Assembly: GCF_026157105.1 (NCBI RefSeq)
Contig: NZ_JANPVQ010000001.1
Span: 1,171,501-1,235,500, forward strand
Reading direction: 5' to 3'
Length of the DNA: 64,000 nucleotides
Origin: Sphingomicrobium marinum
GTDB lineage: Bacteria; Pseudomonadota; Alphaproteobacteria; Sphingomonadales; Sphingomonadaceae
Numbering within the stretch: position 1 is the first letter of the stretch; each line of letters begins with the position of its first letter. The position numbers were made by a program, and so were the translations under genes. Positions 7,682 through 45,181 of the stretch are shown piece by piece. The notes beneath the pieces were generated by a model, which saw only the letters and a program-made list of their open reading frames with translations, searched no databases and had not been told where the DNA came from.

Positions 7682-7723
7682 ACGGCAGTCTTTAGGAGAT
7701 CATTCTAGGAAGGTATCGTACGT

Positions 7724-8104: not shown

Positions 8105-8131
8105 ACAGTCGGATAGATCCAAACTGGGCCT

Positions 8132-8154: not shown

Positions 8155-8191
8155 CGGTGTATTAACGCAGTCTCCGTGAGGGAGACAAATT

Positions 8192-8662: not shown

Positions 8663-8677
8663 TGAAGGCGCTTCGTT
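8644..8677 (+). repeat. 17-base perfect tandem duplication spanning a stop codon
   Basis: The unit GATGAAGGCGCTTCGTT occurs at 8644-8660 and again at 8661-8677, followed by a third partial copy (GATGAAG). The first copy encodes the last residues of the winged-helix protein, and the TGA stop begins at its last base. The second copy is therefore untranslated. It looks like a recent slippage duplication. Confidence 0.85.
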
Positions 8678-8769
8678 GATGAAGTCGCATATTAGCGAGG
8701 TAAAAATCCCCCGGTGCCTACCTTGCGCTTCGCCGGTCGTCCGATGGTGTTGTAAAGCTAGTCTATTCT

Positions 8770-8785
8770 GCTAAGCTAACTTAGC
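8770..8785. promoter_or_regulatory. Perfect palindrome upstream of winged-helix paralog 2
   Basis: GCTAAG-ctaa-CTTAGC, two 6-base arms with a 4-base spacer, 44 bases before the GTG start at 8830. It contains the octamer CTAACTTA found in front of paralog 1. Inference: an operator for a dimeric winged-helix regulator encoded here. Confidence 0.45.
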
Positions 8786-8829
8786 TCGGGTAACCTGAAA
8801 GTCTCTTTTGTGGGGCAGAAGGATCGATC

Positions 8830-9309: not shown

Positions 9310-9358
9310 GTCTTAACATCTTAACCCTTTTCGCCTAACGCTTCCGTTGCCAATATCA

Positions 9359-9541
9359 ATGGGACGTAAAACGTTGTCTAAGAATTTCAGCTCAACGCAA
9401 CCAGACACCAGGATCGATAGAGCTATTGAATTAATGCAAATAGCACTCGAAATACTCGATCGTAATGGCGCTGATCTTGCAGCGATACATTTGGATAGAG
9501 CCTTGCATGAGGCCCGAGACGCGCAAGCCACACAAAACTAA
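9359..9541 (+). CDS. Small alpha-helical protein of unknown function
   Basis: 60 residues from the ATG at 9359 (a TTG at 9347 is also in frame). The core RAIELMQIALEILDRNG..AIHLDRALHEA is amphipathic helix throughout, the style of short hypothetical proteins common in sphingomonads. No recognised domain. It stands alone between the winged-helix gene and the MASE1 hybrid kinase, 80 bases before the latter. Coding status rests on composition and helix pattern only. Confidence 0.5.
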   Translation: MGRKTLSKNFSSTQPDTRIDRAIELMQIALEILDRNGADLAAIHLDRALHEARDAQATQN

Positions 9542-9621
9542 CTCCGATCTGGAGTTTGATCCAACGCCAAAATAACCATTTTGAGAGACGGTTAACCTCA
9601 ATCGGTAGATAAGGGTTAGTC

Positions 9622-12600
9622 GTGCTAAAACTGAAGGTTCGTGAGGTCAGGCTCACAATTCTCGTGGCGATCATATTTGGTCTATTGGCGTGGGTCAGCA
9701 TAGAGCTCACCCGCCTTGATGGGCGCATCGCTGCGGTATGGGTTGCAAATTCTTTTTTGTTAGCTTTCCTTTTTCGTTGCAATCGTAGGGCGAAAATTGC
9801 GCTGATAATGGCGTGCTACTGCGCCAACGTCATCGCCAATCTCGGGGTCGGCGATGCCCCGCTGACCTCGATCGTATTGTCTGCGGCCAATACGGTAGAA
9901 GTGCTTACTATTCTGTTCCTTTGGCGGTCGTGGGTAGGTAAGCGCTGGAAGCCGCGCAAAATGGATCATTTCCTAAAAATGTCGGTCGTCTTCCTTCCGG
10001 CCGCGGCGATTTCTGGCGCGATAGCCACTTCGTTTCTTGTGATCTCAGCCAATGCTAGCTTTGGTGAGCTATGGTTCTTGTGGTTTAGCGCCGACGCGCT
10101 CGGCCTGCTCATTTTGACGCCATGCCTGGTGATGTTTATCGACGGACAAAGATTGCGGAAATTTAGTCGCAAAAACCTCAAAGAGATAGTTCATAGTGGA
10201 TCCATAGTCGCAATCGCCACTGTCACCGTTTTCCTTCTTTCGGACTATCCCTTCCTTTTCTTGGTTTGTCCGGCAATTATCTATGCGGCCTTCCGAGGAG
10301 GGACACTTGCGACAGCTGTGGCAATTGCAATTGCAACGCTCATTGCATCTACTGCGACTGCTTTGAATCTAGGACCGATCACCTTGGTTAGAGGTGGCGT
10401 TCATGATCAAATATTCGCTCTACAAGTGTTTTTGGCCTCAAACCTTTTGGCGGGCCTACCAGTTGCGATCAAGCTCGAAGAGCGGATGAGAATTAAAAGA
10501 AAGCTGCGAGAAAGCCGCGACTTCAATCAAGCCATTCTAGATAATATCCACGAAGTGATATTTCGAACCGATCAAGAGGGGCGTTGGACTTTTTTGAATC
10601 CAGCTTGGGAAAAGCTTACGGGTTTCCGTATTGAGGAGAGTCTTGGTTGGCCAACGACAAAGCTCTTGCATCCTGACGATTTGGAAAGAGATTTGCCAGT
10701 CTATATCAAACTGGCCAATGGCGAGATCAATGCGGCATCGTTCGACCAGCGCTTTTCTAACGCGAACGGCGAACTCACGTTCATTGCGGTTTCAGTAAGC
10801 CGTCTTACGGATGACGATGGTTCGTTCCTTGGGACCGCAGGCTACATTCGGAATGTCACCGATACGAGGTTGGCAGAGCAAGCGTTGCGAGAAAGCAACC
10901 GGCAATTCCAGACTTTGGCCGATTTGGCCCCTGTCGGTATTTTCAGAACTAGCCCAGCCGGCGACTGCACGTACGTCAACGCAGCATGGCAGGCGATTAC
11001 CGGACTTCACTTTGACGAAGCACAGGGCGAGGGTTGGAGCCAGGCACTGCACCCGGACGACAGCGATCGCGTTTTCCATGAGTGGCGCCACGCGGTGGAC
11101 AATTGCTGTAAGCTGACCACCGAATTCAGGTGGCTCCGGCCACAAGGCGACGTGCGTTGGGTGTCTGTGTTAAGCCAAACCGAGCACAATGAGGCAGGGG
11201 AGATGATTGGCTTTATCGGCGTTCTCATAGACATCACCCACCATAAGAAATTTGAAGCCGCGTTAAAGGAGGCACATGAACGTGCCGAAGCAGCAGCAAG
11301 CGCAAAATCGAATTTTCTCGCGAATATGAGCCATGAAATCAGGACTCCAATGAACGGTGTATTAGGCTTCACTGAACTGTTGGCTCAAAGCGAGCTTGAT
11401 GATGAACAGCGGCGCTATACATCGATGATCCGTCAATCCGGCGAAGCCATGATGACGCTTCTCAATGACATTCTAGATATTTCAAAGATCGAAGCAGGTC
11501 ATATGACTCTCGTAGAGCGTACGGTAGATCTCCAGAAAGCTTCATCGGAAGCCGTCGCGATAATGGAACCGACTGCAGCGCAAAAGGGCATCACACTTGC
11601 CCTTGAATGGCCCTCAGATCTGGCTACCACACACCGAATTGATCCTCTGCGGTTTCGACAGATCCTGCTAAATCTAGTGGGCAACGCCATTAAATTCACC
11701 GATGCCGGGAGCGTGCGTGTGATCGCGAGTCTGGAAAAAGAAAACGACAGAGATAATCTCGTTGTGGCTGTGAAAGACACCGGGATCGGTATTGAGGAAA
11801 ATCGCCTTGAGGAGATCTTCAACCAATTCGTTCAGGCAAGCGAGGGCACTGCGCAGGTATATGGTGGAACCGGACTGGGCCTGGCAATTAGCTCCCGACT
11901 TGCTCGTCTCATGAATGGGTCAATACGCCTTTCTAGTACACCGGGCATTGGGTCGGAATTTAAACTTGTGTTACCGCTCAAACTGGCTGAGGCTGGGGAC
12001 AAACCGATTGAGATAACCTCCGGTGAAACTGCCGGGATTCGCGATGTTTGTCGCGTTCTCGTAGCTGAAGATCATGAAGTAAACCAACAACTCATGAAAG
12101 CCATGGCAGACCAAGCTGGCTTCGAGGTTCAAATAGTACAAAACGGCTTAGATGCCGTTAGGGCAATCGAGCAATCTGTGCTTGAAGATGCACCCTTCGA
12201 TTTCGTCCTTATGGATATGCAGATGCCCGTAATGGACGGTGTCGCTGCCACCCGTGAAATTCGTGCAAATGGGCACGACGCAGAGAGTCTGCCGATTATC
12301 GCACTAACGGCAAACGCGTTTGCTGATGACGCGCAGCGCTGCATTGACGCTGGCATGCAGGCCCATATTGCCAAGCCGGTAACTTTAGAATGCTTGCGCC
12401 AGCTGTGTGAGAAATGGAGTCGCAAGACTAATCCAGACCGTATTAGACAAACGGCTTTGCCTGACCATCTCCTTGAGCTTTTCGAGAAACAAAAATGCGA
12501 GTTACTCAGGCTGATTGAGGAGACGATGAGTGAGCGATCCAGTTTTTTGCGCAGTCGTCAGAACCTCATTGAGCGACTCCATAACATCGCAGGCAATGCT

Positions 12601-12729
12601 GCCTATTTTGGTGAGGAAGGTTTGGGAAGATTAGCCCGTGAACTTGAGACGCTCTTAGAAACGGACATCCGGAACGAAGGATATAAACACTACCAGAAGA
12701 AAGCCGGCGCCTTCTTGAATGCTGCCTAA
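9622..12729 (+). CDS. MASE1-PAS-PAS hybrid histidine kinase with receiver and HPt domains
   Basis: 1035 residues. An N-terminal MASE1-type membrane sensor with about eight hydrophobic segments (residues 1-285) is followed by two PAS domains (~300-415 and ~425-545). The HisKA H-box is FLANMSHEIRTP (His571), and the HATPase has an N-box (NLVGNAIKF), DTGIGI and GGTGLGLAI. The receiver has Asp865 in LMDMQMP and Lys918, and a C-terminal HPt-like domain has candidate His987 in LHNIAGNAAYFG. This is a complete phosphorelay in one chain, as in ArcB/BarA-type kinases. GTG start at 9622 with AAGGG upstream. Signal unknown. No dedicated output regulator is adjacent, though the Asn-receiver and the FixJ-like regulator are nearby. 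Confidence 0.9.
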   Translation: MLKLKVREVRLTILVAIIFGLLAWVSIELTRLDGRIAAVWVANSFLLAFLFRCNRRAKIALIMACYCANVIANLGVGDAPLTSIVLSAANTVEVLTILFLWRSWVGKRWKPRKMDHFLKMSVVFLPAAAISGAIATSFLVISANASFGELWFLWFSADALGLLILTPCLVMFIDGQRLRKFSRKNLKEIVHSGSIVAIATVTVFLLSDYPFLFLVCPAIIYAAFRGGTLATAVAIAIATLIASTATALNLGPITLVRGGVHDQIFALQVFLASNLLAGLPVAIKLEERMRIKRKLRESRDFNQAILDNIHEVIFRTDQEGRWTFLNPAWEKLTGFRIEESLGWPTTKLLHPDDLERDLPVYIKLANGEINAASFDQRFSNANGELTFIAVSVSRLTDDDGSFLGTAGYIRNVTDTRLAEQALRESNRQFQTLADLAPVGIFRTSPAGDCTYVNAAWQAITGLHFDEAQGEGWSQALHPDDSDRVFHEWRHAVDNCCKLTTEFRWLRPQGDVRWVSVLSQTEHNEAGEMIGFIGVLIDITHHKKFEAALKEAHERAEAAASAKSNFLANMSHEIRTPMNGVLGFTELLAQSELDDEQRRYTSMIRQSGEAMMTLLNDILDISKIEAGHMTLVERTVDLQKASSEAVAIMEPTAAQKGITLALEWPSDLATTHRIDPLRFRQILLNLVGNAIKFTDAGSVRVIASLEKENDRDNLVVAVKDTGIGIEENRLEEIFNQFVQASEGTAQVYGGTGLGLAISSRLARLMNGSIRLSSTPGIGSEFKLVLPLKLAEAGDKPIEITSGETAGIRDVCRVLVAEDHEVNQQLMKAMADQAGFEVQIVQNGLDAVRAIEQSVLEDAPFDFVLMDMQMPVMDGVAATREIRANGHDAESLPIIALTANAFADDAQRCIDAGMQAHIAKPVTLECLRQLCEKWSRKTNPDRIRQTALPDHLLELFEKQKCELLRLIEETMSERSSFLRSRQNLIERLHNIAGNAAYFGEEGLGRLARELETLLETDIRNEGYKHYQKKAGAFLNAA

Positions 12730-12816
12730 GATGTGAGTTATTGCAAAACCAGATCTTCGTAAACTCGACACCAAGCCAGACAATTGAGATCCGAGCGAAC
12801 TCTTTTTGGAGCGAAC

Positions 12817-12969
12817 ATGACCAAAATAATTTGCAAAAACCCGACTTGCGGACCGCGAGGCACGCACTCAGTAGAAGTCTGCGTTTTTGGAGAAGATGTT
12901 TGCCCGTTAATACTGGATTATTTGGACGATCTCGAGCATTCTCAAGGGCTTAAAGCAAACAGAAGCTAG
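12817..12969 (+). CDS. Possible 50-residue cysteine-containing peptide
   Basis: ATG at 12817 with GGAG five bases upstream. The peptide MTKIICKNPTCGPRG.. has four cysteines (residues 6, 11, 22 and 29) and an acidic C-terminal helix (LDYLDDLEH). The cysteine spacing could bind a metal, but no family is recognised. It lies 87 bases after the hybrid kinase gene. Low certainty because of its size. Confidence 0.4.
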   Translation: MTKIICKNPTCGPRGTHSVEVCVFGEDVCPLILDYLDDLEHSQGLKANRS

Positions 12970-13294
12970 AATGACCGGAACGGAAAGTGATCAGTATGGC
13001 TTCGTCGAAGCGCAGACCGGGGCCTTAAACACGGAGCAGCCTAACTGTGGCACGCGAAGTTCCACTAATTCAATAATTGCATTTTTCGATAGGGATCGTG
13101 GAGATAGGAACCGCTGGGTTTCGCGCTGATCGTTAATCAATTTGGCGTCGTCTCGCTAGTCTCGATCATCACCCGGTCTTCTCATGATCTTATTATTGGG
13201 AAATAGTAGTCAGCATAAAATATCCATATTGGTGCGTGCGAAAACAACTTCGCTAGCATGCCTTGTTATGTCTTTTTTCTAGAAAGGAAGAGAT
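12970..13294. other. AT-rich non-coding stretch before the second PilZ gene
   Basis: About 325 bases, becoming strongly AT-rich from 13180 (for example TCAGCATAAAATATCC). It probably holds the promoter of the PilZ gene at 13295, whose ribosome binding site AGGAAGAG is clear. No ORF, tRNA or terminator could be supported. Confidence 0.4.
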
Positions 13295-13591
13295 ATGCAA
13301 AGTTGGCTTAAATCCGTCGCATCAGAACGGAAACGACGAGAGGTCCGCGAGCCTCGAGTTGCATTGGGCGCGTTAGGAAATCTTGTAGACAATAACGGGA
13401 ATCATATTCCGGTAGTTGTAGAAAATGTCTCAAAGAACGGTTTCCTGGTGCAGTCCGACTGCACGTTGAGCAAAGATTGCCAATACGAACTGGTCTTTAT
13501 CAATGACGATAGTGTGACAGTTCGTGTTCGCTGGGTGCAGGGAAAATTTGCTGGCGGAACGATTCAAACCGAACCTAGAAACTTGCAGTAG
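13295..13591 (+). CDS. PilZ domain protein
   Basis: 98 residues, essentially one PilZ domain. Both c-di-GMP signatures are present: a basic RxxxR-type stretch near the start (ERKRREVREPR) and NxSxxG in ENVSKNG. It ends after the last beta strand (GKFAGGTIQTEP). Good AGGAAGAG site before the ATG. Inference: a free-standing c-di-GMP adaptor. It is one of two single-domain PilZ genes here, 73 bases before the next. Confidence 0.8.
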   Translation: MQSWLKSVASERKRREVREPRVALGALGNLVDNNGNHIPVVVENVSKNGFLVQSDCTLSKDCQYELVFINDDSVTVRVRWVQGKFAGGTIQTEPRNLQ

Positions 13592-13664
13592 CCGCGCATC
13601 AACTGAGTAACAGAAGCATTCGGTGTAGACTTGCATCTCCCTATCAAGTTCGAAAGGTTTTGAC

Positions 13665-13952
13665 GTGCCAAACATCCAGCGCAAAGAACGACGCTTAACG
13701 CTTGTTTGCAACGTGAAGATCCGACAAGCAGGCTGCAGGGAAGTTACGGCAAAGATTAGTGATTTGTCGCGAGCGGGGTGTCGGCTGGATCTTCCATACA
13801 ATCTGAGAGTGCACGAGACGATTTATGTTCGTCTTCCTGGCCTGATGGATCTCGAGGCTGTGGTTTGTTGGGTTAAAGGGTTTTCAGCGGGGGTCGAGTT
13901 TCCTCGACCGATTCATGAAGCCGTTTTCAATCATCTTTGCAAAAACTTTTGA
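13665..13952 (+). CDS. PilZ domain protein
   Basis: 95 residues, GTG start. One PilZ domain with a basic N-terminal motif (QRKERRLTL, RxxxR) and DxSxxG in SDLSRAG, the two loops that bind c-di-GMP in the family. The C-terminus ends in AGVEFPRPIHEAVFNHL, typical of short PilZ proteins. It follows another PilZ gene on the same strand and may be transcribed with it. The two differ strongly in sequence, so they are not a recent duplication. Confidence 0.8.
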   Translation: MPNIQRKERRLTLVCNVKIRQAGCREVTAKISDLSRAGCRLDLPYNLRVHETIYVRLPGLMDLEAVVCWVKGFSAGVEFPRPIHEAVFNHLCKNF

Positions 13953-14440
13953 TCGTCCTTTCGACGAGGAAGTATATGGCTCGGAGGGGATTAGGGCTTT
14001 CCAGAGATGTGACGAGATTGATCGACTTGTCGGACACGGCAACTGGATTTGCCGGCGCGCTGGACGGACGCGGGCCAAGGGTAACAAGCGAGAAATATTG
14101 CGATCCACCAATTTGCTCGTAACTCTCGAATCTGGTCCGTGGGAAATTACCTAGGATGATCCATCTATGCCATTTGGTCTGCCATTCCAGGCAGACTTTC
14201 AGTACAATTCCTTGCAGACCGAATTCGAGCTTGCCCAGCTCTTCGGGTGGTTTTTACCGCAATGCAGAAATACTACATGCGAACGATACCCGCCGACAAT
14301 CGATCGCTGCTTGTTGCCTTTGTCGATCGCCCATCCTACACGATATATAAGTTCCAAAACGATACGAAATTTGCCATCATCTTTTAAATGGTGTAAAATC
14401 ATTACTGCTCGGTTCAACACGCTGAACGTCCAGCGCCAGA
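13953..14440. other. Non-coding stretch before the FixJ-like regulator
   Basis: About 490 bases. Several short ORFs overlap here (for example 13976-14122 and 14167-14481), but none has a recognisable domain or convincing composition. AT-rich runs near 14340-14400 may belong to the promoter of the regulator gene at 14441. Nothing further could be supported. Confidence 0.4.
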
Positions 14441-15112
14441 ATGAGAAACGATGGCATGCATCCCCAAGCCGGGCTCGATAACCAGCATCCGACTTCGTCA
14501 AAAGATTGCCCGAATGTTTTCTTGATCGATGATCACGCAGCTGTCCGAGATAGCTTAGACTGTCTCCTTCGACTAAATGGTTACAGCGTGCAGCAGTTTA
14601 GCAGCGCAGAGGCGTTTCTTGAGATTGAGCGCTATTTGAAGAGCGGGGTTGTGCTGGCGGATCTTCGCTTACCTAAGATGAATGGGCTCGAAATGATCGA
14701 GCAAATTGTTTCAAGACGTTCGGACCTGCATACCATTGTCTTGACTGCGCACGGAGATGTGGACGCGGCCGTATCTGCGCTCCGGCTAGGAGCAAAGGAT
14801 TTTATCCACAAACCTTACGAACAAGATGAGCTTATGGGGGCCATTTCTCGTCAGTTTGAGGAATTGGCGTGCATGCAGAATAGGGCGAAAAATCAGGCAG
14901 AGGCTCGAGCCAAAATCATATGTCTGACGTCGCGCGAACGCGAGGTGGCAGAACGATTAAGCGATGGGCTGTCGAATAAAGAAATCGCTCAGGATCTTAA
15001 CATAAGTGTCCGTACGGTTGAGATGCATCGTGCAAGAACAATGGAGCGGCTTGGCGTACGCAACCTTGCGCAACTTGTTGCGATAATGATCAGAGCGGGT
15101 GAGGCCGCATAA
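14441..15112 (+). CDS. FixJ/NarL-type response regulator
   Basis: 223 residues. The receiver domain (residues ~25-140) has Asp74 in LADLRLPKMNG, LTAHGD and Lys in HKPYE. A LuxR-type helix-turn-helix (LTSREREVAERLSDGLSNKE..VRTVEMHR, residues ~157-220) follows. The PxxxxF..TAHGDVxxA pattern is typical of the FixJ/TtrR subgroup. Start uncertain: ATG 14441, or ATG 14456. The sensor kinase gene at 15651, with a FixL-like catalytic core, lies just beyond one small minus-strand gene and is the likely partner. Confidence 0.85.
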   Translation: MRNDGMHPQAGLDNQHPTSSKDCPNVFLIDDHAAVRDSLDCLLRLNGYSVQQFSSAEAFLEIERYLKSGVVLADLRLPKMNGLEMIEQIVSRRSDLHTIVLTAHGDVDAAVSALRLGAKDFIHKPYEQDELMGAISRQFEELACMQNRAKNQAEARAKIICLTSREREVAERLSDGLSNKEIAQDLNISVRTVEMHRARTMERLGVRNLAQLVAIMIRAGEAA

Positions 15113-15114
15113 CA

Positions 15115-15537
15115 TCACGTGTGCGTTTGCAGTTGATCCGCAATCTGCCGCTGTAAGTTGACGGTCATGCTCACGCGACGAAGAGCGTCGGGCGTAAGTT
15201 CGACGAATTTCCGACGAGCGTCGAGTGGGTCATCTCTCTGTATAACCAGCCCTTCGTTCGTAAGCCGCTCCAGCCATCGCCAGGCGGTGGAATACGGGGC
15301 AGTTGTAGCACTACAAGTCTCGCGAATGGTGGCACGTTGTTGTTGAAGTTTGCGGAGTGCGAGAAAGATGAGCATTTCCCAGCCTGGTTCGGAAAATAGG
15401 ATGGATGGTAGATGACGACTTCTTATGTTCCGCCGATCAATGATTGATTGAATATCTTGAACCGTCACTTCATCGACCGCCTCTAAGTGGGAAGGGTGGT
15501 GTCCCTCAGAGGATACTTTGAGATTGGGTCGGTTCAT
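15115..15537 (-). CDS. Winged-helix (MarR-like) protein, paralog 3
   Basis: 140 residues with the same plan as the genes at 8192 and 8830: ILFSEPGWEMLIFLAL, an HTH region (TAPYSTAWRWLERLTNEGLV), a wing (RDDPLDARRKFVELT) and a C-terminal helix. ATG at 15537 with GAGGAGG upstream. It is divergent from the histidine kinase gene at 15651 across a 113-base region holding inverted repeats, and it sits between the kinase and its FixJ-like partner. Inference: a local repressor or modulator of the two-component pair. Confidence 0.75.
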   Translation of the reverse strand: MNRPNLKVSSEGHHPSHLEAVDEVTVQDIQSIIDRRNIRSRHLPSILFSEPGWEMLIFLALRKLQQQRATIRETCSATTAPYSTAWRWLERLTNEGLVIQRDDPLDARRKFVELTPDALRRVSMTVNLQRQIADQLQTHT

Positions 15538-15601
15538 CGGATCTGCCTCCTCAAATTGACCCAGAATGGATATTATATGACCGGTTCAAAGAATATATCG
15601 G

Positions 15602-15651
15602 AATACTACTACAGTAATTTGGCTATCTCCGATTGTAGTATTGCTACTGTA
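15602..15651. promoter_or_regulatory. Nested inverted repeats in a divergent promoter
   Basis: AATACTAC (15602-15609) pairs with GTAGTATT (15635-15642), and TACAGTA (15610-15616) pairs with TACTGTA (15645-15651, its last base being the A of the kinase start codon). The spacing suggests two operator half-sites controlling the winged-helix gene (minus) and the kinase gene (plus). Confidence 0.45.
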
Positions 15652-17717
15652 TGAACACTTCATACTTAACCACATTGCGGTATCCGCCTCATCGAAAATC
15701 GATTTTTTCAGATAGCCGTGTGTCGGCTCCTAAGCGTGTAACAATCGCGACGTCGTTTTTCCTTCTCGGTTTTTGTCTGCTTTTAACAATCATGGCCGGA
15801 GAATGGGTGTCTGCGCAGCGTGATCGGTTAGTGAGTGAAGCTAGTTTGCGAAACCAGATGCGTGTGGCGGCTCTCGAGCAATTTTCGCTTCGCATCTTGG
15901 AAATGGCGAAGCTTTCGATGAGCCAAATCAAACATGAGCTTGACCATAACACGGCTATGGGCTCTTCCCACTTAAATCAGGCTCTTCGAGAAACTAGCGA
16001 AATTTCATCTGTGATTGAGCATCTCTATGTAAACGTAGACGGTCGTCGAGGAGCGTCGGACGCGAAGGTTTTTTTGGGTTCGAAAGCCGAGCTGGACCTC
16101 CGTTCCGCATACGAAAAATCTGGCTACGATTATTGGGTATCGCCGCCACTTGAAGTGGGATCCGGCGAAGACCTTATCGCGCTAGTTACAAAAGATACTA
16201 GGAACGGTACTGATAGGTTTATTGTCGCTTACATGCGTCCGCATGTTTTTACGAGCTTCGGCCAAACAGAGAAGTTAGAGGATGGAGAGTTAATCTCGCT
16301 TATAGGGCTGGACGGCATTACCCGTGCCCGACGTACTGGTCACCAATATAGTAGCGGTGAGCAGCTTGCTGGAACGCTAGTGATGCGTAAGCAAAGTGAG
16401 GAACCCAATGGAACCTATGTTGGGCCGCACTCGATAACACAAGAGCCGTATATCTTTTCGCATAGGCGCCTGTCCGAGTTCGGTCTTTTTGCGACGAGTG
16501 GAATGCGTCGAGATCGCTACCTCCGTCCGTTGCAACATTACAAAATTTTTGTCGGAGCAATGGTTGTCGCTGCTCTAGTTTTGAGCATAGCCGCAGTATT
16601 TCTGCTGAACGCATACCTCCGGAAGCAAAGCATTCAGCTGCAGACCATGCGAGCCGCGAACAGGCAGCTTAATCACGCCCAGTTGCTCGGTAAAATGGGA
16701 GATTGGAAGTATGACGTCCATACTTCTAAATTGATAATATCAGAAAACCTTTCTCGAACATACGGAGTGAACCAACTTGTCATTGACCACCGGCATCTCA
16801 TCGAGGTTTTGGATACGGATAATTTTGCTCGTTTCAGCTCAGCGATCGAAGATGTCAAGCGAAACAAGCGCTTAAAAGTTTTCGAATTGAAGAGCAAAAT
16901 TGCAGACGGAACGCACTCATATAGAAGGGTCTTGGCAAGTCCTGAAATGAATGAAAACGGAGATGTGATAGTCATTTATGGTATCGATCAATCAATTGAC
17001 GACGAGAAGACGCTCCGTTCCCTTCGTTCGCGAGCTGCTGCGCAAGCAAGACTACAGTCAATGAGCGCGTTGACCGCGACGTTGGCCCACGAAGTCAATC
17101 AACCGCTCACTGTAATCTCAAATTTCCTGTCGGCTGCGAGGCGGCAGCTTCGGTCCGATGGCCGGAGCGACCGCCAGTTGAACACCTATTTGCAGAAAGC
17201 AAATGATCAAGTCCTAGTATTGGGAGAGATGATCGGTGCCGCTCGCGAGTTGGTTTCTAATTCTGACAAGGAAATGGAAATCTTCGAACTGCAAGATGTA
17301 ATCAACGAAGCAATCGATCTCCTTGATGTTGACCCCCAGTATGAAGTTTCTTCCGTTATGGTCGTTGGAAGCCACGAGACGCTTTCGATCTGCGGAAGTC
17401 GAGCTTTGGTGAAACAAGTCTTTTACAATCTCTTGAAAAACGCGCTCGAAGTCCTCGAAGATGGAAAGCCTGAGATCATTGTAAGTTGGGCCCAATCGAA
17501 GTCGTCTTTGATTGAAGTCTCAATCGAAGATAACGGACCCGGCTTTGCAGACGGCGTGCGGCCATTTGAAGCGTTCTCATCTGAGAAGCCGGGAGGGATT
17601 GGTCTAGGTTTGGCGCTCTGTCGGACAATTATCGAGGCTCAAGGTGGTCAAATCTGGGTGTCCAATTCTGACAGTCGTGGTGCTCGAATATGCTTTACCC
17701 TGACTCAAGCTAACTAA
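15651..17717 (+). CDS. Membrane sensor histidine kinase with extracytoplasmic sensor and PAS domains
   Basis: 688 residues. Two membrane helices (residues ~30-50 and ~297-320) flank a ~245-residue periplasmic region, probably Cache-like (VIEHLYVNVDGRRG, FLGSKAEL, YWVSPPLEVG). A cytoplasmic PAS-like region (~340-450) follows. The kinase core has an H-box LAHEVNQPLTVI with His480, and a HATPase with NLLKNALEVL, DNGPGF and GGIGLGLAL. The HEVNQPL form is that of the FixL/DctB class, which pairs with FixJ-type regulators such as the one at 14441. Start codon ATG 15651 lies in the palindrome described above. Confidence 0.85.
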   Translation: MNTSYLTTLRYPPHRKSIFSDSRVSAPKRVTIATSFFLLGFCLLLTIMAGEWVSAQRDRLVSEASLRNQMRVAALEQFSLRILEMAKLSMSQIKHELDHNTAMGSSHLNQALRETSEISSVIEHLYVNVDGRRGASDAKVFLGSKAELDLRSAYEKSGYDYWVSPPLEVGSGEDLIALVTKDTRNGTDRFIVAYMRPHVFTSFGQTEKLEDGELISLIGLDGITRARRTGHQYSSGEQLAGTLVMRKQSEEPNGTYVGPHSITQEPYIFSHRRLSEFGLFATSGMRRDRYLRPLQHYKIFVGAMVVAALVLSIAAVFLLNAYLRKQSIQLQTMRAANRQLNHAQLLGKMGDWKYDVHTSKLIISENLSRTYGVNQLVIDHRHLIEVLDTDNFARFSSAIEDVKRNKRLKVFELKSKIADGTHSYRRVLASPEMNENGDVIVIYGIDQSIDDEKTLRSLRSRAAAQARLQSMSALTATLAHEVNQPLTVISNFLSAARRQLRSDGRSDRQLNTYLQKANDQVLVLGEMIGAARELVSNSDKEMEIFELQDVINEAIDLLDVDPQYEVSSVMVVGSHETLSICGSRALVKQVFYNLLKNALEVLEDGKPEIIVSWAQSKSSLIEVSIEDNGPGFADGVRPFEAFSSEKPGGIGLGLALCRTIIEAQGGQIWVSNSDSRGARICFTLTQAN

Positions 17718-18020
17718 AAGGGGAGCACTATTTGGATTAGTCGTTACTCTGAGGAGGCGCCCGACAGCCCGCGTTGAGACTTGAGTTTAAGCGTACGTCG
17801 GCTACTATAGACGTGCAGCGTGTCGAAAATGCTAGGCTAGGGCGCCGTAGCCGGATCCGGCGCCCAAATTTCACGACAACCTAGCGCTGCACGCAACTGA
17901 AGCGGTCCCTGACGTTCGTCTCCGTGCCCTACTCAAGACAGCCAGCTATCCATAACTCTTGGTAGATGCAACACAGGTGGAACACGCGCCCCACGAACCG
18001 TGTAAATTCTAGGGAAAAAA
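17718..18020. other. Non-coding stretch before tRNA-Met fragment 1
   Basis: About 300 bases after the sensor kinase. No ORF, terminator or tRNA 5' half is present: in particular no acceptor or D-arm sequence precedes the anticodon arm at 18021. Base composition rises in GC towards the right. Confidence 0.4.
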
Positions 18021-18070
18021 GCGGAATCATAATCCGCGTGTCGGGGGTTCAAGTCCCTCCTCCGCTACCA
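18021..18070 (+). pseudogene. tRNA-Met(CAU) 3' fragment 1 (candidate attachment site)
   Basis: Anticodon stem GCGGA/TCCGC around loop ATCATAA (anticodon CAT), variable loop GTGTC, T-arm GGGGG-TTCAAGT-CCCTC, acceptor 3' strand CTCCGCT, then A and an encoded CCA. The D-arm and 5' acceptor strand are missing. This is what remains at the far end of an element inserted into a tRNA gene by a tyrosine recombinase. Identical over 48 bases (18025-18072) to the fragment at 23808-23855. Confidence 0.85.
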
Positions 18071-18222
18071 TTCTTTGATATTTTCGACGGAATAGTTGCC
18101 CGGTGTCTTCCTGTCGGCGCCATTTGGCCGCTGGCCTACTGACGCAGTGGCTATAGTCGCCCTTCCTCGGGCCAAGGCTGGGAAAAGAAATGGGCGGCCA
18201 ACGACCGCCCATATCCTGATTA

Positions 18223-18621
18223 CTACGCCATGGGGAAGTAATAGAGTCTTACTGTCCTTTCGTAGCCTTCGTCGAAGTTCGGATCTTCACTCGAGCTAAA
18301 ACGAGGCGGCTCATTCTTTTCGAGATCATCCTTTGACAGCGTCTTCAAGCGATAACCGCCCTTGCTTGTGTCGTAATCCAGAGCGTCCCACGGGAGAGGT
18401 GTATAATCTTCTCCCATTCCAAACAGACCTCCTGAACCCATTACGACGTAGCGGACGCGCCCGTCATGCTTTGTAAGCATGACCTTTTTGACACTTCCGA
18501 CCTTCTCGCCGTTGCGATCGAAAACGGTAGTTCCTTCCACCTTGTCAGCCGAGATGAGATTTTGGCTTTCGTCGCGTGTAAGAATGTCTTCTCTTTCTCT
18601 TTCAAATGTCGTCGTGGCCAT
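18223..18621 (-). CDS. PRC-barrel domain protein
   Basis: 132 residues. The PRC-barrel runs from about residue 20 to 90: LISADKVEGTTVFDRNGEKV, then SVKKVMLTKHDGRVRYVVMG and PLPWDALDYD. In this family the barrel follows the pattern 'separate/modify, link to ...'. Free-standing PRC-barrel proteins of this size are common in Rhizobiales and Sphingomonadales and are often linked to general stress, but no stress promoter could be identified here. Divergent from the membrane protein gene at 18795. Lies between tRNA-Met fragments 1 and 2. Confidence 0.85.
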   Translation of the reverse strand: MATTTFEREREDILTRDESQNLISADKVEGTTVFDRNGEKVGSVKKVMLTKHDGRVRYVVMGSGGLFGMGEDYTPLPWDALDYDTSKGGYRLKTLSKDDLEKNEPPRFSSSEDPNFDEGYERTVRLYYFPMA

Positions 18622-18794
18622 TTCCTTTCTCCCTCTAGTTCACTAGTGCCGGCGCGCCTTTGCGCCGATGCAGTATCAACGCGTCGAAAGATGGAGAGTT
18701 CTTCGTTATATCATTGATTTCATTCGAGTTATCGCGCGGACAAAGTGCGCTCGAATAAAATGGCACTTATAGGGGCGATCTGAGATAAGCAGGC

Positions 18795-19211
18795 GTGACC
18801 AAATCTCGCACGCTAGGGTGTCTCGGCGCCTTATTCGCGATCTACCTCGGGATGATCGTCACCATGCCTTTCATTTCCGCAGGCTACGGCGACAGCCTGG
18901 TTGAGCGAGTGTTGAGCGCCATTTTTATGCCATTCATGATGTTCATGCCCTTCGCGCCCCCGATCATCTTTGCGGTTTTCTTTGACCAGGTTGGGTCTGA
19001 CAAAAGCCCCCTGAAGCGAGGCGCCCGTGTAGGCTCTGGGCTGCTGCTGGCGCTAGGAATGATGTATGCTTCATTTGCTTTCGCGATGGCCGGACGGTTC
19101 GTCGTCTTGACGGGGGCCGACGGCATAATCGTCTCAGGGCTCTTGCTAGTCTCCGCCGGTTTGGCGGTAATCGGCTTTCGACGCGCGTCGCCCACGATCC
19201 GGGAACAGTGA
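18795..19211 (+). CDS. Four-helix membrane protein, unknown function
   Basis: 138 residues with hydrophobic segments near residues 8-28, 38-62, 77-100 and 106-128 (for example GALFAIYLGMIVTMPFI and GIIVSGLLLVSAGLAVIGF). No known family. The start codon is GTG at 18795. The stop codon ends two bases before the sequence where the tRNA-Met fragment 2 homology begins to be recognisable, so the 3' end of the gene abuts the putative attachment site. Confidence 0.65.
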   Translation: MTKSRTLGCLGALFAIYLGMIVTMPFISAGYGDSLVERVLSAIFMPFMMFMPFAPPIIFAVFFDQVGSDKSPLKRGARVGSGLLLALGMMYASFAFAMAGRFVVLTGADGIIVSGLLLVSAGLAVIGFRRASPTIREQ

Positions 19212-19212
19212 T

Positions 19213-19249
19213 TTGCGTGTCGGGGGTTCAAGTCCCTCCTCCGCTACCA
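19213..19249 (+). pseudogene. tRNA-Met 3' fragment 2 (candidate attachment site)
   Basis: Variable loop, T-arm and acceptor 3' strand with CCA, identical to fragment 1 over 36 bases (19215-19250 against 18036-18071). Just upstream the match decays (TTTGC where fragment 1 has TCCGC), and the anticodon loop is absent, so this copy is shorter than the other two. Confidence 0.8.
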
Positions 19250-19481
19250 TGTTTTGCAGGCAGAAGCCGCACCGCGCTGCGATCTTGTTGCCAAGGCGCG
19301 CATCCTAATTCGTTTCGCCGCGACCGTCATGCCGGTCGGTCGCAGCGGACCCCCTCGCAAAAAATTCAGAAAACGTCCAACCGATAGAGCGGCTGCTCCG
19401 TATCTAGCTTGTCGGACCACTAGGGTGCGGCTGCCCGCATTGCACCAATGCCAACGCACATGAATGCATAGGAGCCAGTTA

Positions 19482-20153
19482 ATGCGCACCTCCATCAAAC
19501 CACTATTGGCAGGGGGAGCGCTACTTGGCGCTGCGGCCCTTGTCTTCCAATTGGGCGGCGAACCCATCGTCGCAGCCGATCACCTCGATCCGCCGCAACG
19601 CACGAGCCCGGACGCAGATGACACGCCTGATACCGCTGCCGACATCGCCGATCTCTATGTCTTTTTCGATGGGACGACGACCAAGCTCATCCTGACATTT
19701 GCTGGCCCGGCCCCGACTGACCAGCCCGCCACATTCGACCCCGATGTGCGCTACTTCATCAACGTCTCCAACGATACCGATCGCGCAACGGTCGAAATTC
19801 CCATTCTCGTTCAGTTTGGCGAGGATGATAGCCAGCCGGGCGACCAGTTTGGCGTGCGCGTGAGCGGGCTTCCTGGCGTCACAGGCGACATTATCGGACC
19901 CGTCGAAACGGACCTCATGCAAGACGGCGTTACCGTTCGCGCGGGTCTCTTCGATGATCCGTTTTTCTTCGACCTGCAGGGTTTCCGGGAGACGCTCGAT
20001 ACCGGCACACTTAGCTTCGACTCAAGCCGTGACTTCTTTGCCGGTCAGAATCTGACTGCAGTGGTGATCGAAATTCCCAACAATAGCCTCGCACAAGGCA
20101 ACAACGTGATTGATGTCTGGGCGGAGACGCTCCGGCTCGGAGGGCAACTATAA
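19482..20153 (+). CDS. DUF4331 family secreted protein
   Basis: 223 residues from the ATG at 19482, chosen because AGGAG ends seven bases before it; an in-frame ATG at 19464 has no such site. The N-terminal signal segment (ALLGAAALVFQLGGEPIVAA) is followed by the DUF4331 signature ADHLDPP and DIADLYVFFDG. The family is found with ECF sigma/anti-sigma and TPR genes but has no established biochemical role. The stop overlaps the next start by one base (TAATG). First gene of the module between tRNA-Met fragments 2 and 3. Confidence 0.85.
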   Translation: MRTSIKPLLAGGALLGAAALVFQLGGEPIVAADHLDPPQRTSPDADDTPDTAADIADLYVFFDGTTTKLILTFAGPAPTDQPATFDPDVRYFINVSNDTDRATVEIPILVQFGEDDSQPGDQFGVRVSGLPGVTGDIIGPVETDLMQDGVTVRAGLFDDPFFFDLQGFRETLDTGTLSFDSSRDFFAGQNLTAVVIEIPNNSLAQGNNVIDVWAETLRLGGQL

Positions 20154-40180: not shown

Positions 40181-40870
40181 TTAATGTTCGCGCTTGAACA
40201 GCATCGCGCGAAATCCGCGATAGATCATTTCATCAAACGCCTTGAAACCAAGCTTGCGTGCGATGCAGATCGAGGCCTTGTTTTCATGATGGATCATGCA
40301 AACCGTGCGTGTCGCGATCAGCCGGTCCTCGGTAAATTCGAGCGCGGCATAGGCAGCTTCCGAGGCATAGCCCTGGCCCTGGAAGGGCTTGGCAATGGTC
40401 CAGGAAGCTTCCGGGTGACGATCGAAATCCTCGCCCAGCTCGCGGTGGAAGTCACCATAGCCGACCTCGCCAACCAATCGTCCCGTTTCCTTCTCGAACA
40501 CCGCAAACAGACCGTAATCAAGGAGCGCCCAATGGCCCGCCTGGCGCAGCAAGCGCGTATAGGCTTCATCGCTCGTCATCGGCCCGCGGGTCGAATAGGT
40601 CCAGCAATCGGGATCGGCCAGCATCACTGCATAGGCATCGAAATCCTCCAGCTGGAGCGGGCGCAACGTCAGTCGCTCGGTTTCGATAAAGGCTTCGGCA
40701 AAGAGTAGCTCCTTGGCGACATCCTTTGAAATCTCCCGCATCCTGGCATGGGCCAACATGCCACTCACGCGCGGGCTGACTTCGATTGGTTCGGTCCCGT
40801 CGAGAACAGGAAACGCGGGTTCACCGCCAATATACGCAGCGGAGCGCCCGCCCTGTTCGTTGTTACGCAA
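40181..40870 (-). CDS. GNAT family N-acetyltransferase
   Basis: About 229 residues from TTG 40870, which has AGGAG seven bases upstream; ATG 40759 (MLAHARMRE) is an alternative giving a protein more typical in length. Typical RimJ/RimL-type acetyltransferase from FIETERLTLRPLQLEDFDAY, with the acetyl-CoA binding region in FQGQGYASEAAYAALEF and the end ENKASICIARKLGF. It probably acetylates small molecules or protein N-termini; the substrate is unknown. It ends at a clear terminator. The start codon overlaps the end of a 39-residue ORF. Confidence 0.85.
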   Translation of the reverse strand: MRNNEQGGRSAAYIGGEPAFPVLDGTEPIEVSPRVSGMLAHARMREISKDVAKELLFAEAFIETERLTLRPLQLEDFDAYAVMLADPDCWTYSTRGPMTSDEAYTRLLRQAGHWALLDYGLFAVFEKETGRLVGEVGYGDFHRELGEDFDRHPEASWTIAKPFQGQGYASEAAYAALEFTEDRLIATRTVCMIHHENKASICIARKLGFKAFDEMIYRGFRAMLFKREH

Positions 40871-41154: not shown

Positions 41155-42720
41155 ATGGCTCAAGTTGTTGGTAGGGGCTTGGCAATTGGCGAGTTCCGAA
41201 TTGATCTAGGTGATGAACGCCTGTTAGGTCCGCACGGACCTGTGAAACTTGGAAACAAGGCTTTTCAAGTACTTGTCGCCTTGGCCGAGCGCGACGGTCG
41301 CCTGCTTACCAAGGACAAGCTTTTCGAAAGCGTATGGGACGGCATGGCCGTTTCAGAATCGGCGCTGACGACCACGGTCCGCGAATTGCGCAACGCTTTG
41401 GGTGATCCGTCGCGCCATCCGCGCTATATCGAAAGCGTTTACGGGCGCGGATATCGGCTGATCGCGTCGGTGCGTCCATGGGACGGCAAGGACCTGCCGT
41501 CGGTCCAGCCGAGCCGTGCCGCTCAGCCGGCACCAAAGCCGGAGAAGGCCAAGGGAGCCCCGCCGCGTGTCGTCATGGGCGACTTCAAGGATGAGGCCGT
41601 TACCGATACGCATCCGCACGCCGGCGATGCCATGCGCGAAGAGGTGCTGCTTGGCTTGTCGCGTTTCCGTGAAATCCAGGTTATCGCCAACGCGGCCGGC
41701 ATAAAGGGCGGGGGCGATCGCGATTATCAGCTCGACGCCACGCTGCTGCCCGACGGCAACGACGTGAAGATCGTGGCGCGTGTGCACCGGCTGGGTGACG
41801 GCGGCGTGGTCTGGGCGGAAACGATGAAGCTCGACGGTAGCGGGCTCGGGGCGGGGATCGAAAAAATCGTTCGCCAGATCGTGGGGGCAGCGTTGCCCGC
41901 GCTCGACCAGGATGTGTCGATCGGGATCGGTGACGCGGCCGGTAGCATTTTCGACCGCTATCTCGTCGCCAAGCGACATAGCGTGGAAGCACAGACCCGC
42001 GCGGAAGCCGAAGATGCGGCGCGCGAGCTTGAGGCGATCGTTGCCGAGCAGCCGGGCTTCGCGCTGGCCTATCCGCCGCTCGTGCGGCTCTATAATATCG
42101 ATTATGGCTATACGGCGTTGGGCTCCACCAGCCCGGTCGAACGCGCGCGCGCGCTTGAGCTCGCCAAGGCGGGGCTCGCGGCCGATCGCAGCCATGTCCA
42201 CGCCTATACCGTGCTGGGCTTTTGCCATCTCTATCACGGAGAGTTTGATCAGGCGCATTCGTCGTTCGAACACGCCCTGGAACGCAACCCTTTCAACCCG
42301 GTACGCCTCAACGAGGTCGCCACCGGCATGCGCTATCTTGGTGATTTCACCCGCTCGCGCGAGCTGATCGAGCAGTCACGCGATATCCAGCCCTTTGCGG
42401 ACGACAACAGCCAGGAGGATCTTGGCCACCTCTACATGTTGGAAGGCGACTGTGACGCAGCGGGCAAATGTTTCGCCAAGGTGACGGTCGCATCGATCTG
42501 GACGGAGCTGTATGCCGCCATCTGCGCGCATCACAAAAGCCCGTCAAAGGGCATCAAGGCAGTCGATAAATGGCGCAAGCGTGTCGTCGATCAGTGGCAC
42601 CGCCCGATCCCGCCGAGCAGCGAGGAAATCTTCGAATGGTTCCGCTTTCATCATCCCTACAAGGATGATGCCGGCGCCAAGCTGATCGAAGCCGTCAAGG
42701 ACGCATTGGGCGTCGAGTGA
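41155..42720 (+). CDS. ToxR/OmpR-type winged-helix regulator with TPR-like C-terminus
   Basis: 522 residues from ATG 41155. N-terminal winged helix of the Trans_reg_C type: FRIDLGDERLLGPHGPVKL, LTKDKLFESVWDGM, ALTTTVRELRNALGD and YIESVYGRGYRLIA (residues ~10-105). The middle (~140-260) is beta-rich, and the C-terminal half has TPR-like helices (GFCHLYHGEFDQAHSSFEHAL, LGHLYMLEGDCDAAGKCF). No membrane helix and no receiver, so it is not a response regulator. Its last 26 bases overlap, tail to tail, the end of the TfuA gene, making it the nearest candidate regulator of the YcaO operon. Confidence 0.8.
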   Translation: MAQVVGRGLAIGEFRIDLGDERLLGPHGPVKLGNKAFQVLVALAERDGRLLTKDKLFESVWDGMAVSESALTTTVRELRNALGDPSRHPRYIESVYGRGYRLIASVRPWDGKDLPSVQPSRAAQPAPKPEKAKGAPPRVVMGDFKDEAVTDTHPHAGDAMREEVLLGLSRFREIQVIANAAGIKGGGDRDYQLDATLLPDGNDVKIVARVHRLGDGGVVWAETMKLDGSGLGAGIEKIVRQIVGAALPALDQDVSIGIGDAAGSIFDRYLVAKRHSVEAQTRAEAEDAARELEAIVAEQPGFALAYPPLVRLYNIDYGYTALGSTSPVERARALELAKAGLAADRSHVHAYTVLGFCHLYHGEFDQAHSSFEHALERNPFNPVRLNEVATGMRYLGDFTRSRELIEQSRDIQPFADDNSQEDLGHLYMLEGDCDAAGKCFAKVTVASIWTELYAAICAHHKSPSKGIKAVDKWRKRVVDQWHRPIPPSSEEIFEWFRFHHPYKDDAGAKLIEAVKDALGVE

Positions 42721-43390
42721 TCTCCTCATCCAGTTGCCGGACCCAGCGCGTGCGCGGTGGGTGGGCAGCGGGAGAGGCTAGCGGGCAAGTCAACGCAAAT
42801 GGAATAGCACCAAGTGCGTCGAGCTGCTTGCGCTGTATGTGGCTGTCTGCAATGGCCTGAAGCGTTGCGCGGTCCGCCAGATCGGCGGCTGCGGCGATCA
42901 TCGCGGGCCAGTCCCGGTCGGCAAAATGGATGTCGTGCCAGCGAGCTAGAAGCTGCTGCGCCAACGCTTGATCGGGATGGCGTTCGAGCGTGGCGCGCAC
43001 GTCGACCATTGCCACAGTGATGGCCTTCCATCCGATACGCGCATCGCCGTGGACGAGCGCGACTTCATCGTCGCCTATCAGCTTGCCACTGGCATAGTCG
43101 CCGGCGATCTGCCCGAACCCAAGCATGCCGAAGGATGACAGCTCGGCATACCGCAGCGCCCCCATGCTGGCCGCGCCGATAAGCGTTGTCCCCTCTGCCA
43201 TAAGGGCCAGACATTCCTTATGGGTGACCGCCGCCCGCGTATCGAACAGGCCATCGATCAGCAGCACGCGCTGGGGTGTTTTGGCAACAAGTTTGAGAAA
43301 ATCACCGGCCTGTGCGGGTGGTCGCCACTCGACCTCGCTAAAAGCGTCGCGCAAATCGCGCGGTATGGACGGTCCTGCAAATACGATCAT
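42695..43390 (-). CDS. TfuA-like protein
   Basis: 231 residues. The TfuA core is plain: RVLLIDGLFDTRAAVTHKE, LIGAASMGALRYAELSSFGM and IGDDEVALVHGD (residues ~40-120). TfuA proteins act with YcaO enzymes, and such pairs make backbone thioamides in thioviridamide-type peptides and in methanogen McrA; TfuA is thought to deliver or release sulfur. Starts on the stop of the YcaO gene (ATGA overlap at 43387-43390), so the two are co-translated. It overlaps the convergent regulator gene by 26 bases. No signal or membrane segment. Confidence 0.88.
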   Translation of the reverse strand: MIVFAGPSIPRDLRDAFSEVEWRPPAQAGDFLKLVAKTPQRVLLIDGLFDTRAAVTHKECLALMAEGTTLIGAASMGALRYAELSSFGMLGFGQIAGDYASGKLIGDDEVALVHGDARIGWKAITVAMVDVRATLERHPDQALAQQLLARWHDIHFADRDWPAMIAAAADLADRATLQAIADSHIQRKQLDALGAIPFALTCPLASPAAHPPRTRWVRQLDEEITRRPMRP

Positions 43391-44505
43391 GCCCGTCGCT
43401 CTCTTGCCAGCGACCCCATGCCGGGCACGAAAGCGCGTTCGATCCAGAAGCCGTCACGTTCGAGAATGGAGACAAAGCAGCAGCAATCGAATCCCGTACC
43501 CGACAACGCTTCAGCGATAGCTTCGACAGTCGTCGGCCCGGTTCCCCCAGCGTCATAGTGCGACGGAGAAACGCCTGGGTTCGGGGGTGGGGCCAGCGCA
43601 AACGACACCACTCGTTCCGGCTGGTCGTAAAGTGACGGAAGGCAGTCGTCGCGCGATGCGGAAATGAAGGTAAGCCTGCTCTGCACGGCTTCGGCCACCG
43701 CCTTGAACAAGGCGATCTCGGCATCGGGATGGGCGGCGTGCCCGACGATCGCGCGATACGGACGTGAATCCTTCGAATGGTCGTCGATCGATGCGGCAAA
43801 GGCCGGGCCGATCGCCGGCAGGCGGAAGACCCTCAGGCTGCCGCCTGCGGCGGCGATGCGATCATGAAGATCGGCAAACCAGTCATACGGAACGGTGCCG
43901 GGCATGATTTCATGCTGGAGCCTCGCAATTATGTCGGTGCCAAGAAATGCACGCAGCGCGTCGCGCTCGATCAATTCGTAGAGCGCCGTACGCCGTGCAT
44001 CCTCCTGGCTTGTCCCCATAGCCAGTCCGGCGCTCGAACGTTCGAAGAGCGACGGTTCAGGCAGGGTGAAATCAAGGCTCACACACTTGAACGGGACCCA
44101 GCAATAACTGGCGTCAATGCGCTCGGCCCGCGTCCATTGTACTTCCTGGTCGGGAGCAGGGGGCGCATTGCGGTGGCGGGCAAAGTCGGCCAGGTCATGT
44201 GGCCGCTCGTTCGCATCAAGATCGCGCCACGTGCAGGTCGGGCCATTTGCCTCGAACCGTTCGGCCGCATCGCTTTCGGCAGCTTCCAGCAGGGCCCCAA
44301 GCTGCGCGTCCGATGCACGCGCGCCCTTACCCTGGTGTACCGAGAGGGCGCGGCTCATCGGACGAACCGCCTGCCAGACAGGCAAACCGATCCGGTCAAG
44401 CCGGGTAATGTCTGCCAGTCGGGTGACGCCGGATGATTTCGCTAGCTGCTGCGCCCGAGCGAGCAGCGAAGCTGCTGCGGTGCGCCGCCCGTCGACCGGG
44501 CCCAT
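43387..44505 (-). CDS. YcaO-domain ATP-dependent peptide-modifying enzyme
   Basis: 372 residues. The YcaO ATP/Mg site motifs are present: SSAGLAMG (157-164), ALYELIERDAL (174-184, Glu177 and Glu180) and AVAEAVQSR (269-277, Glu272). An upstream helix ALLEAAESDAAERF (72-84) fits the family. The protein ends at VPGMGSLARERR, not in the PxPxP tail of azoline-forming YcaOs. Known chemistry: ATP activation of an amide oxygen, giving azolines, amidines or, with TfuA, thioamides. It starts six bases after the 90-residue peptide gene and overlaps the TfuA gene, so all three form one operon. Confidence 0.92.
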   Translation of the reverse strand: MGPVDGRRTAAASLLARAQQLAKSSGVTRLADITRLDRIGLPVWQAVRPMSRALSVHQGKGARASDAQLGALLEAAESDAAERFEANGPTCTWRDLDANERPHDLADFARHRNAPPAPDQEVQWTRAERIDASYCWVPFKCVSLDFTLPEPSLFERSSAGLAMGTSQEDARRTALYELIERDALRAFLGTDIIARLQHEIMPGTVPYDWFADLHDRIAAAGGSLRVFRLPAIGPAFAASIDDHSKDSRPYRAIVGHAAHPDAEIALFKAVAEAVQSRLTFISASRDDCLPSLYDQPERVVSFALAPPPNPGVSPSHYDAGGTGPTTVEAIAEALSGTGFDCCCFVSILERDGFWIERAFVPGMGSLARERRA

Positions 44506-44511
44506 CGACCT

Positions 44512-44784
44512 TTAGTCGTCGTCGCCAGTATTGACGCCGCTGAATGCAACGGTGCTGAAATCCACCGCGGGATACCACGTATTAGGGGAATCGTGCACTT
44601 CCTGGAATTTATCCGCCATGTCCTGCACGCCCTTTTCCATGGCCGCTTTCCAAGCCTGGTCGGGCTGCTTTTGCGCTGCCTTCGGATCGTAGACCAGCAG
44701 CTTACCATTGGTCATGTAATAGGTATCGCCAACCTTGATGACGAAACGGGTATGAGCGTTCGGGCCATTCGGTTTACCGGGCAT
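44512..44784 (-). CDS. 90-residue peptide, candidate RiPP precursor
   Basis: ATG 44784 has GGAGA six bases upstream; a GTG at 44799 overlaps it. The peptide starts MPGKPNGPNAHTRF.., has a charged helical middle (QPDQAWKAAMEKGVQDMADK, residues ~43-62) and a distinct C-terminus, YPAVDFSTVAFSGVNTGDDD (71-90). No cysteine at all; Ser and Thr are the only possible azoline residues, while thioamides need none. No Nif11, NHLP or other known leader. Position six bases before the YcaO gene is what a substrate would show. Could instead be an accessory protein; role is inference. Confidence 0.65.
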   Translation of the reverse strand: MPGKPNGPNAHTRFVIKVGDTYYMTNGKLLVYDPKAAQKQPDQAWKAAMEKGVQDMADKFQEVHDSPNTWYPAVDFSTVAFSGVNTGDDD

Positions 44785-44924
44785 TTTGGTTCTCCCCACA
44801 GTTCCACGTGCTCAGGATAAACACTACGGTCAGCAATAACCAGTGTGAGTTTTGCGCTGAACAAATTTTCATCCCGAAGATCGTCTGGCAGGCGCCACTT
44901 AGAGCTCGCCATTGTCGCGGACGC

Positions 44925-44958
44925 AAAAAAGCCCGGGCAGTGGAGGTGCCCGGGCTTT
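44925..44958. terminator. Symmetrical terminator hairpin upstream of the YcaO operon
   Basis: AAAGCCCGGGCA (44928-44939), 7-base loop, TGCCCGGGCTTT (44947-44958). On the minus strand the stem runs straight into TTTTTT; on the plus strand TTTCTCTT follows. No gene on either strand ends here, and it stands ~140 bases before the peptide gene, so it would stop a minus-strand transcript heading into the operon. The rest of 44785-45181 (about 400 bases) holds only presumed promoters. Confidence 0.75.
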
Positions 44959-45181
44959 CTCTTGCGTGACGATTGCTCGTCAGCCCCCAGTTGCTGCCAA
45001 GGAAAGAGCAAAGCAGCGAGGCGCACGCTAGTCTCGCTTGATCGCGCTTGTGAAGAGGATTCGGGCGGCTGTGTCACATTAAGGCGCTGCCTGTTGCACC
45101 TATGCCACGATTGGCGCTTGTATGGGGACCGCCACTGGGGCAAAGCCCTCGCAATCGCAGCATAAACCGGAGCAATGCCAG

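Follow-up and report, generated by a model that had tools for sequence, protein, structure and literature searches.

YcaO enzymes use ATP to activate backbone amides. Their partner TfuA hydrolyses a thiocarboxylated ThiS-type carrier protein and so delivers sulfide (PMC13063428). For thiovarsolin B, a precursor, a YcaO and a TfuA suffice and no dedicated protease is present, and N-acetylation of the thiovarsolin peptides is ascribed to a host enzyme (PMC6511847). Known clusters for thioamidated ribosomally synthesized and post-translationally modified peptides (RiPPs) need no dedicated transporter; the characterized YcaO-TfuA examples all came from Actinobacteria when that study was written, and most of the clusters are in Proteobacteria (PMC8120280). 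The same study gives 613 families of TfuA-related RiPP clusters for Proteobacteria and 797 precursor families over all phyla. Here, a stretch of 64,000 nucleotides from Sphingomicrobium marinum (contig NZ_JANPVQ010000001.1, positions 1,171,501-1,235,500), referred to as the window, was analysed for a minus-strand operon encoding a 90-residue protein, a YcaO and a TfuA. The locus is probably a compact cluster of the thioamidated-RiPP type with the 90-residue protein as its substrate.

The operon and its 90-residue protein

44784-44512, minus strand: candidate precursor or substrate, 90 residues, with an ATG start and the ribosome-binding-like sequence GGGGAG before it
44505-43387, minus strand: YcaO, ATP-dependent amide-activating enzyme, 372 residues (PF02624)
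43390-42695, minus strand: TfuA, sulfur-delivery partner of YcaO, 231 residues (PF07812)
Peptide residues ~14-60: leader-like region, from conservation (F14, I16, Y23, T25, Y32)
Peptide C-terminus: core-like tail, ending in FSGVNTGDDD

A first-pass annotation of the same DNA had proposed a three-gene operon with intact YcaO and TfuA motifs. It took the operon for a RiPP-like or protein-modifying system whose candidate precursor is the 90-residue protein. The observation was real and the class of system correctly guessed: the coordinates, the 6-base gap between peptide and ycaO and the 4-base ATGA overlap between ycaO and tfuA were all reproduced, and the comparisons below support the candidate precursor. 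Both enzymes are full-length family members in Pfam (PF02624, 3.1e-40, across the whole length of YcaO at residues 58-363; PF07812, 2.2e-32, for TfuA). The closest solved relatives by sequence are the archaeal MJ1094 YcaO (6pe3, 1.1e-11) and, for TfuA, 6xp8 (2.1e-19, aligned over residues 2-145). A McrA-type function was considered and rejected, as the NCBIfam equivalog cut-offs of TIGR03266 and NF033432 were missed (114.9 of 365 bits and 135.1 of 235.2 bits, respectively). No second YcaO was found in the window's genome (2.24 Mb, two contigs), and a sigma-70 promoter scan gave no match.

YcaO enzymes are chemically versatile, and this one could install an azoline or an amidine here instead of a thioamide, which we regard as very unlikely. 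TfuA is adjacent to YcaO in all loci with enough sequence, tfuA-linked YcaO proteins are associated with thioamidation (PMC8120280) and no E1/Ocin-ThiF-type partner was found at the window's locus. A thiazoline is not expected because the peptides of the genus, like that of the window (already noted as cysteine-free in the first pass), contain no cysteine.

The peptide is taken to be a real gene because nine homologues of 73-90 residues occur in the genus, all at the same place, and because the ratio of nonsynonymous to synonymous change (dN/dS) is 0.17-0.62 in five pairs. TfuA, the peptide profile and the two neighbouring genes described below were each searched separately in all 71 genomes of the genus; the peptide profile matched in nine, which are also the nine with TfuA. 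The 391 Sphingomonadaceae genomes were searched with a profile of 11 peptides, which matched in 17, with every match directly upstream of a YcaO and no stray match; TfuA follows YcaO in these family-level loci wherever the fetched stretch extended far enough. The small gene thus does not occur widely without its enzymes, adjoining YcaO at 9/9 matches in the genus and in 17/17 genomes of the family. A search of genome contigs with the single peptide gave no match, and the alignment-based search found three loci. With a profile built from the nine genus peptides only, the open reading frame (ORF) upstream of YcaO in G436 ranked first among the locus ORFs outside the training set, though with an E-value of only 0.026. 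In G991 (L197 / L184) two tandem precursor genes, the first of which may be shortened, precede one YcaO. These sequence comparisons make it very probable that the YcaO-TfuA pair has the 90-residue protein as its dedicated substrate.

Alternatively, the small protein might be an accessory or recognition factor for YcaO-TfuA, with the true substrate elsewhere in the genome. Its N-terminal domain is indeed its most conserved part, and the substrate role is itself deduced from sequence; nevertheless, its position, the variation of its tail and the tandem copies in G991 suit a substrate, and in YcaO-TfuA loci of other Alphaproteobacteria this place is taken by precursor genes of an entirely different type. 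We therefore hold an accessory role to be highly improbable.

The substrate reading also agrees with how conservation is distributed along the peptide. The pattern F-x-[VIL]-x(6)-Y-x-T...YDP lies within the first ~45 residues, and F14, I16, Y23, T25 and Y32 are each conserved in 91% or more of the 23 sequences compared. Outside the genus the profile match spans mainly the first 45-60 residues, and identity to the window's peptide falls from 25-55% at residues 14-34 to 6-23% in the tail; within the genus, eight of the nine peptides have a VNTG-like motif at the end of the tail. A conserved N-terminus joined to differing tails resembles, on this comparison, the anatomy of a leader plus core. The first-pass statement that the peptide has no known leader holds in that no known family matches: the window's peptide had no match in Pfam or NCBIfam, including RiPP precursor families (for example Nif11 and the nitrile-hydratase leader), and of three relatives run against NCBIfam two had no match and the third scored 15 bits, far under the cut-off. 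It needs amending in that about ten genera share a leader-like N-terminal region of ~45 residues. No description of this region was found in the literature, nor anything specific on TfuA or thioamidated RiPPs in Sphingomonads. As far as these searches reach, the window's peptide is a previously unnamed precursor family within a known, large kind, the YcaO-TfuA thioamidated RiPPs.

Divergence of the peptide and YcaO between species

43250-44920, minus strand: mosaic segment spanning peptide and YcaO together with the promoter region and the 5' third of tfuA; nucleotide identity to the nearest species is about 50-65% here and ~75-96% in both flanks

The window (G000) was compared with its nearest relative (G001) in an identity profile. 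Over proS and a small RNA (sRNA)-like element the DNA is about 83-96% identical. At the terminator of that element (about 44920) identity collapses; it remains at 48-71% over the peptide, YcaO and the beginning of tfuA and recovers to 70-90% inside tfuA and beyond. Protein identity is 61% for YcaO and 56% for the peptide, compared with 93, 95 and 98% for the regulator, GNAT acetyltransferase and lolC, respectively. In a second pair, G002 and G061, GNAT and lolC are 95% identical, YcaO 55% and the peptide 37%; the G061 peptide has its closest counterpart in G006 and not in G002, in disagreement with the flanking genes. If peptide and YcaO form a matched enzyme-substrate pair, they would be expected to diverge together as a block, as is seen. 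We read these profiles as exchange of a peptide-YcaO module between species, with relaxed or diversifying selection in addition.

Accelerated evolution in place, instead of exchange, might also lower identity over the peptide and YcaO. G006 and G061 look vertically related with faster protein change, having dN/dS values of 0.36-0.54 in the peptide and YcaO against 0.10-0.14 in the flanks at similar synonymous difference (pS), and the G002/G061 profile is gradual, a peak without a sharp step in which the regulator and tfuA are also raised. Between G000 and G001, however, pS is near saturation in YcaO (0.75), the peptide (0.70) and TfuA residues 1-66 (0.72), whereas it is 0.35-0.52 in the flanks (TfuA from residue 67 to the end, 0.48; regulator, 0.52; GNAT, 0.46; proS, 0.41; lolC, 0.35), and the non-coding DNA becomes entirely different only a few bases from the terminator. 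In-place change as the whole explanation is accordingly judged unlikely, and exchange of the module is preferred.

What is most unusual about the system is this block exchange of peptide and enzyme. A tentative extension, which we hold to be rather unlikely, is that the pair is a module of allelic specificity, exchanged and subject to diversifying selection while regulator, GNAT and chromosomal site are retained. The thioamidated peptide of each lineage would then have a different tail, much as at arms-race or kin-recognition (bacteriocin-like) loci, with the product possibly sensed by the TPR regulator.

Regulator, acetyltransferase and chromosomal site

41155-42720, plus strand: winged-helix (Trans_reg_C) and TPR regulator, start chosen at the ATG of MAQVVGRG
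40181-40870, minus strand: GNAT acetyltransferase (Acetyltransf_3), start uncertain, divergent from the regulator
44920-45040, minus strand: conserved sRNA-like element ending in a terminator (GCCCGGGC-ACCTCCACT-GCCCGGGC-TTTTTT), bordering the mosaic segment

The regulator converges on tfuA, overlapping it by 26 bp. TfuA, the peptide and the regulator were found in an identical set of nine of the 71 genus genomes; if the species are treated as independent, which they are not, the probability that one such set agrees by accident is about 1e-11. Presence is nevertheless scattered. GNAT orthologues occur in those nine genomes only (50-93% identity, the window's own excluded; 176-520 bits), and the other genomes of the genus have only a distant paralogue (at most 40% identity and 120 bits). 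The order peptide-YcaO-TfuA, convergent regulator and GNAT is kept in 9/9 genomes, including G075, G067 and G072, where the locus is not directly beside proS. At family level, too, the regulator converges on tfuA in nearly every locus with a long enough neighbourhood. By this comparison the regulator and GNAT belong to the locus. The operon had been described in the first pass as lacking other tailoring enzymes; that description missed both the co-occurring GNAT and the convergent regulator. Thioamitide tailoring genes are absent beside the operon, the neighbours being the regulator, the GNAT and HPPD, proS-like, lolCD-like and dnaE-like genes.

The sRNA-like element contains a TGACGA-GCAA-TCGTCA hairpin followed by a terminator with CCTCC (anti-Shine-Dalgarno-like) in its loop; Rfam gave only sub-threshold matches to it (ar14, 20.7 of 58.8 bits). 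It was rejected as a cluster member, having a match (some of them short) in 70 of the 71 genus genomes. A conserved serine hydrolase lying between the element and the operon in several genomes was likewise rejected, since genomes without the cluster carry it too. The site 3' of the element, beside proS, is variable (L137, L138, L139, L140, L141) and is occupied by the peptide cluster, by serine hydrolases, by genes of polysaccharide type (G067) or by a phage integrase accompanied by phage-like genes (G013). Elsewhere in the window, G+C is 0.49-0.54 over positions ~4001-20000 against 0.60-0.65 in the remainder, possibly marking acquired DNA.

Proposed chemistry and comparison with known systems

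In the proposed mechanism, the N-terminal leader (about residues 14-60) would dock on the YcaO/TfuA pair. With ATP, YcaO would phosphorylate the oxygen of a backbone amide within the C-terminal tail, and TfuA would provide sulfide from a thiocarboxylated carrier protein. The resulting thioamide (+16 Da) would most likely lie close to the conserved F-x(2)-V-N-T-G end. The neighbourhood of a related YcaO-TfuA in G291 (L030, 7084-10238), which adjoins a ThiS-rhodanese-ThiF protein and a JAB-domain protein (JAB protease), fits such a ThiS-type sulfur route, with the sulfur-carrier module built in. The modified tail may be released by host peptidases and may be acetylated by the GNAT, either as tailoring (N-acetylation of the released peptide) or for self-protection. 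The winged-helix/TPR protein would control the operon, and peptide and YcaO would form a matched enzyme-substrate module that is swapped between species at a fixed site.

Several points weigh against this scheme. No protease or exporter gene was found within the locus, and for this reason a released product is uncertain and the protein may act whole. That the peptide is modified is inferred from sequence comparison. A [QN]T core motif shared by the C-termini of different genera was tried and abandoned (permutation p about 0.18 after post hoc correction), so a C-terminal motif is claimed within the genus only. AlphaFold modelled the peptide poorly (mean predicted local distance difference test score, pLDDT, 45-47, with one or four sequences), and the β-hairpin followed by a helix predicted for residues about 14-60 is of low confidence. 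Finally, the GNAT was found at only one of the family-level loci examined (L197, but none in L029, L031, L106, L188-L196 or L198), and its role in the system may be peripheral.

The first of these points bears on a different outcome of the same chemistry, in which the 90-residue protein is modified but is no RiPP precursor and stays whole as an intracellular, thioamide-bearing small protein. Working proteins with thioamides exist, such as McrA (PMC5589413) and the ribosomal protein uL16 (PMC13063428); the peptide is small, soluble and charged and carries no signal, and its locus encodes a dedicated intracellular regulator. This is nonetheless an improbable outcome: the conserved N-terminus, fast-changing tail and sporadic presence (9/71) resemble a leader plus core rather than a housekeeping protein, and TfuA and YcaO fall far under the McrA-type cut-offs. 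A RiPP-type cluster is retained as the probable reading.

Other alphaproteobacterial loci show different small genes upstream of YcaO-TfuA. Some of those at L087, L090, L091, L092 and L094 have repeated core-like units (DDSQRHAANFIGTTP, GGKQRFAAG), and several of their proteins begin LTRxxDGxLYRI, a different precursor family. In L083, L084 and L089 (one genus) a conserved 136-residue protein (MSKLYIIGDRESGVLF...) without a Pfam match lies directly upstream of YcaO-TfuA.

The window's cluster offers a small, complete and testable proteobacterial system of three chemistry genes, one regulator and one acetyltransferase. With about two dozen natural precursor variants that have a recognizable leader, leader recognition and core tolerance can be tested, and the block exchange of enzyme and substrate, if true, is a natural experiment in enzyme-substrate matching.

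Among described systems, glycine thioamidation of McrA by the methanogen YcaO-TfuA supplies the best-matching solved YcaO (MJ1094, 6pe3) and the one solved TfuA (6xp8), but the window has no McrA substrate and its proteins lie far under the equivalog cut-offs. The thioviridamide-type thioamitides share YcaO-TfuA thioamidation of a precursor tail; unlike them, the window's operon has no adjoining thioamitide tailoring genes. The proteobacterial TfuA-related RiPP families (PMC8120280) resemble the window in having adjacent YcaO-TfuA and small peptides, transporters that are not always present and a proposed horizontal transfer of tfuA; Sphingomonads are unmentioned in its main text, and the window's precursor family may be among those families unnamed. 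The first-pass annotation had thought it unusual that the operon lacks a transporter and leader protease, but neither absence is unusual, given that three genes suffice for thiovarsolin B (PMC6511847) and that a transporter is dispensable (PMC8120280). Thiovarsolin (varA-varY-varT, Streptomyces varsoviensis) likewise has precursor, YcaO and TfuA side by side in a cluster without a leader protease. VarA, compared here by its published description, differs in being given as a repeating precursor. The N-acetylation of the final thiovarsolin product is attributed to an endogenous enzyme, whereas the window's locus has its own GNAT and, again unlike thiovarsolin, a linked winged-helix/TPR regulator.

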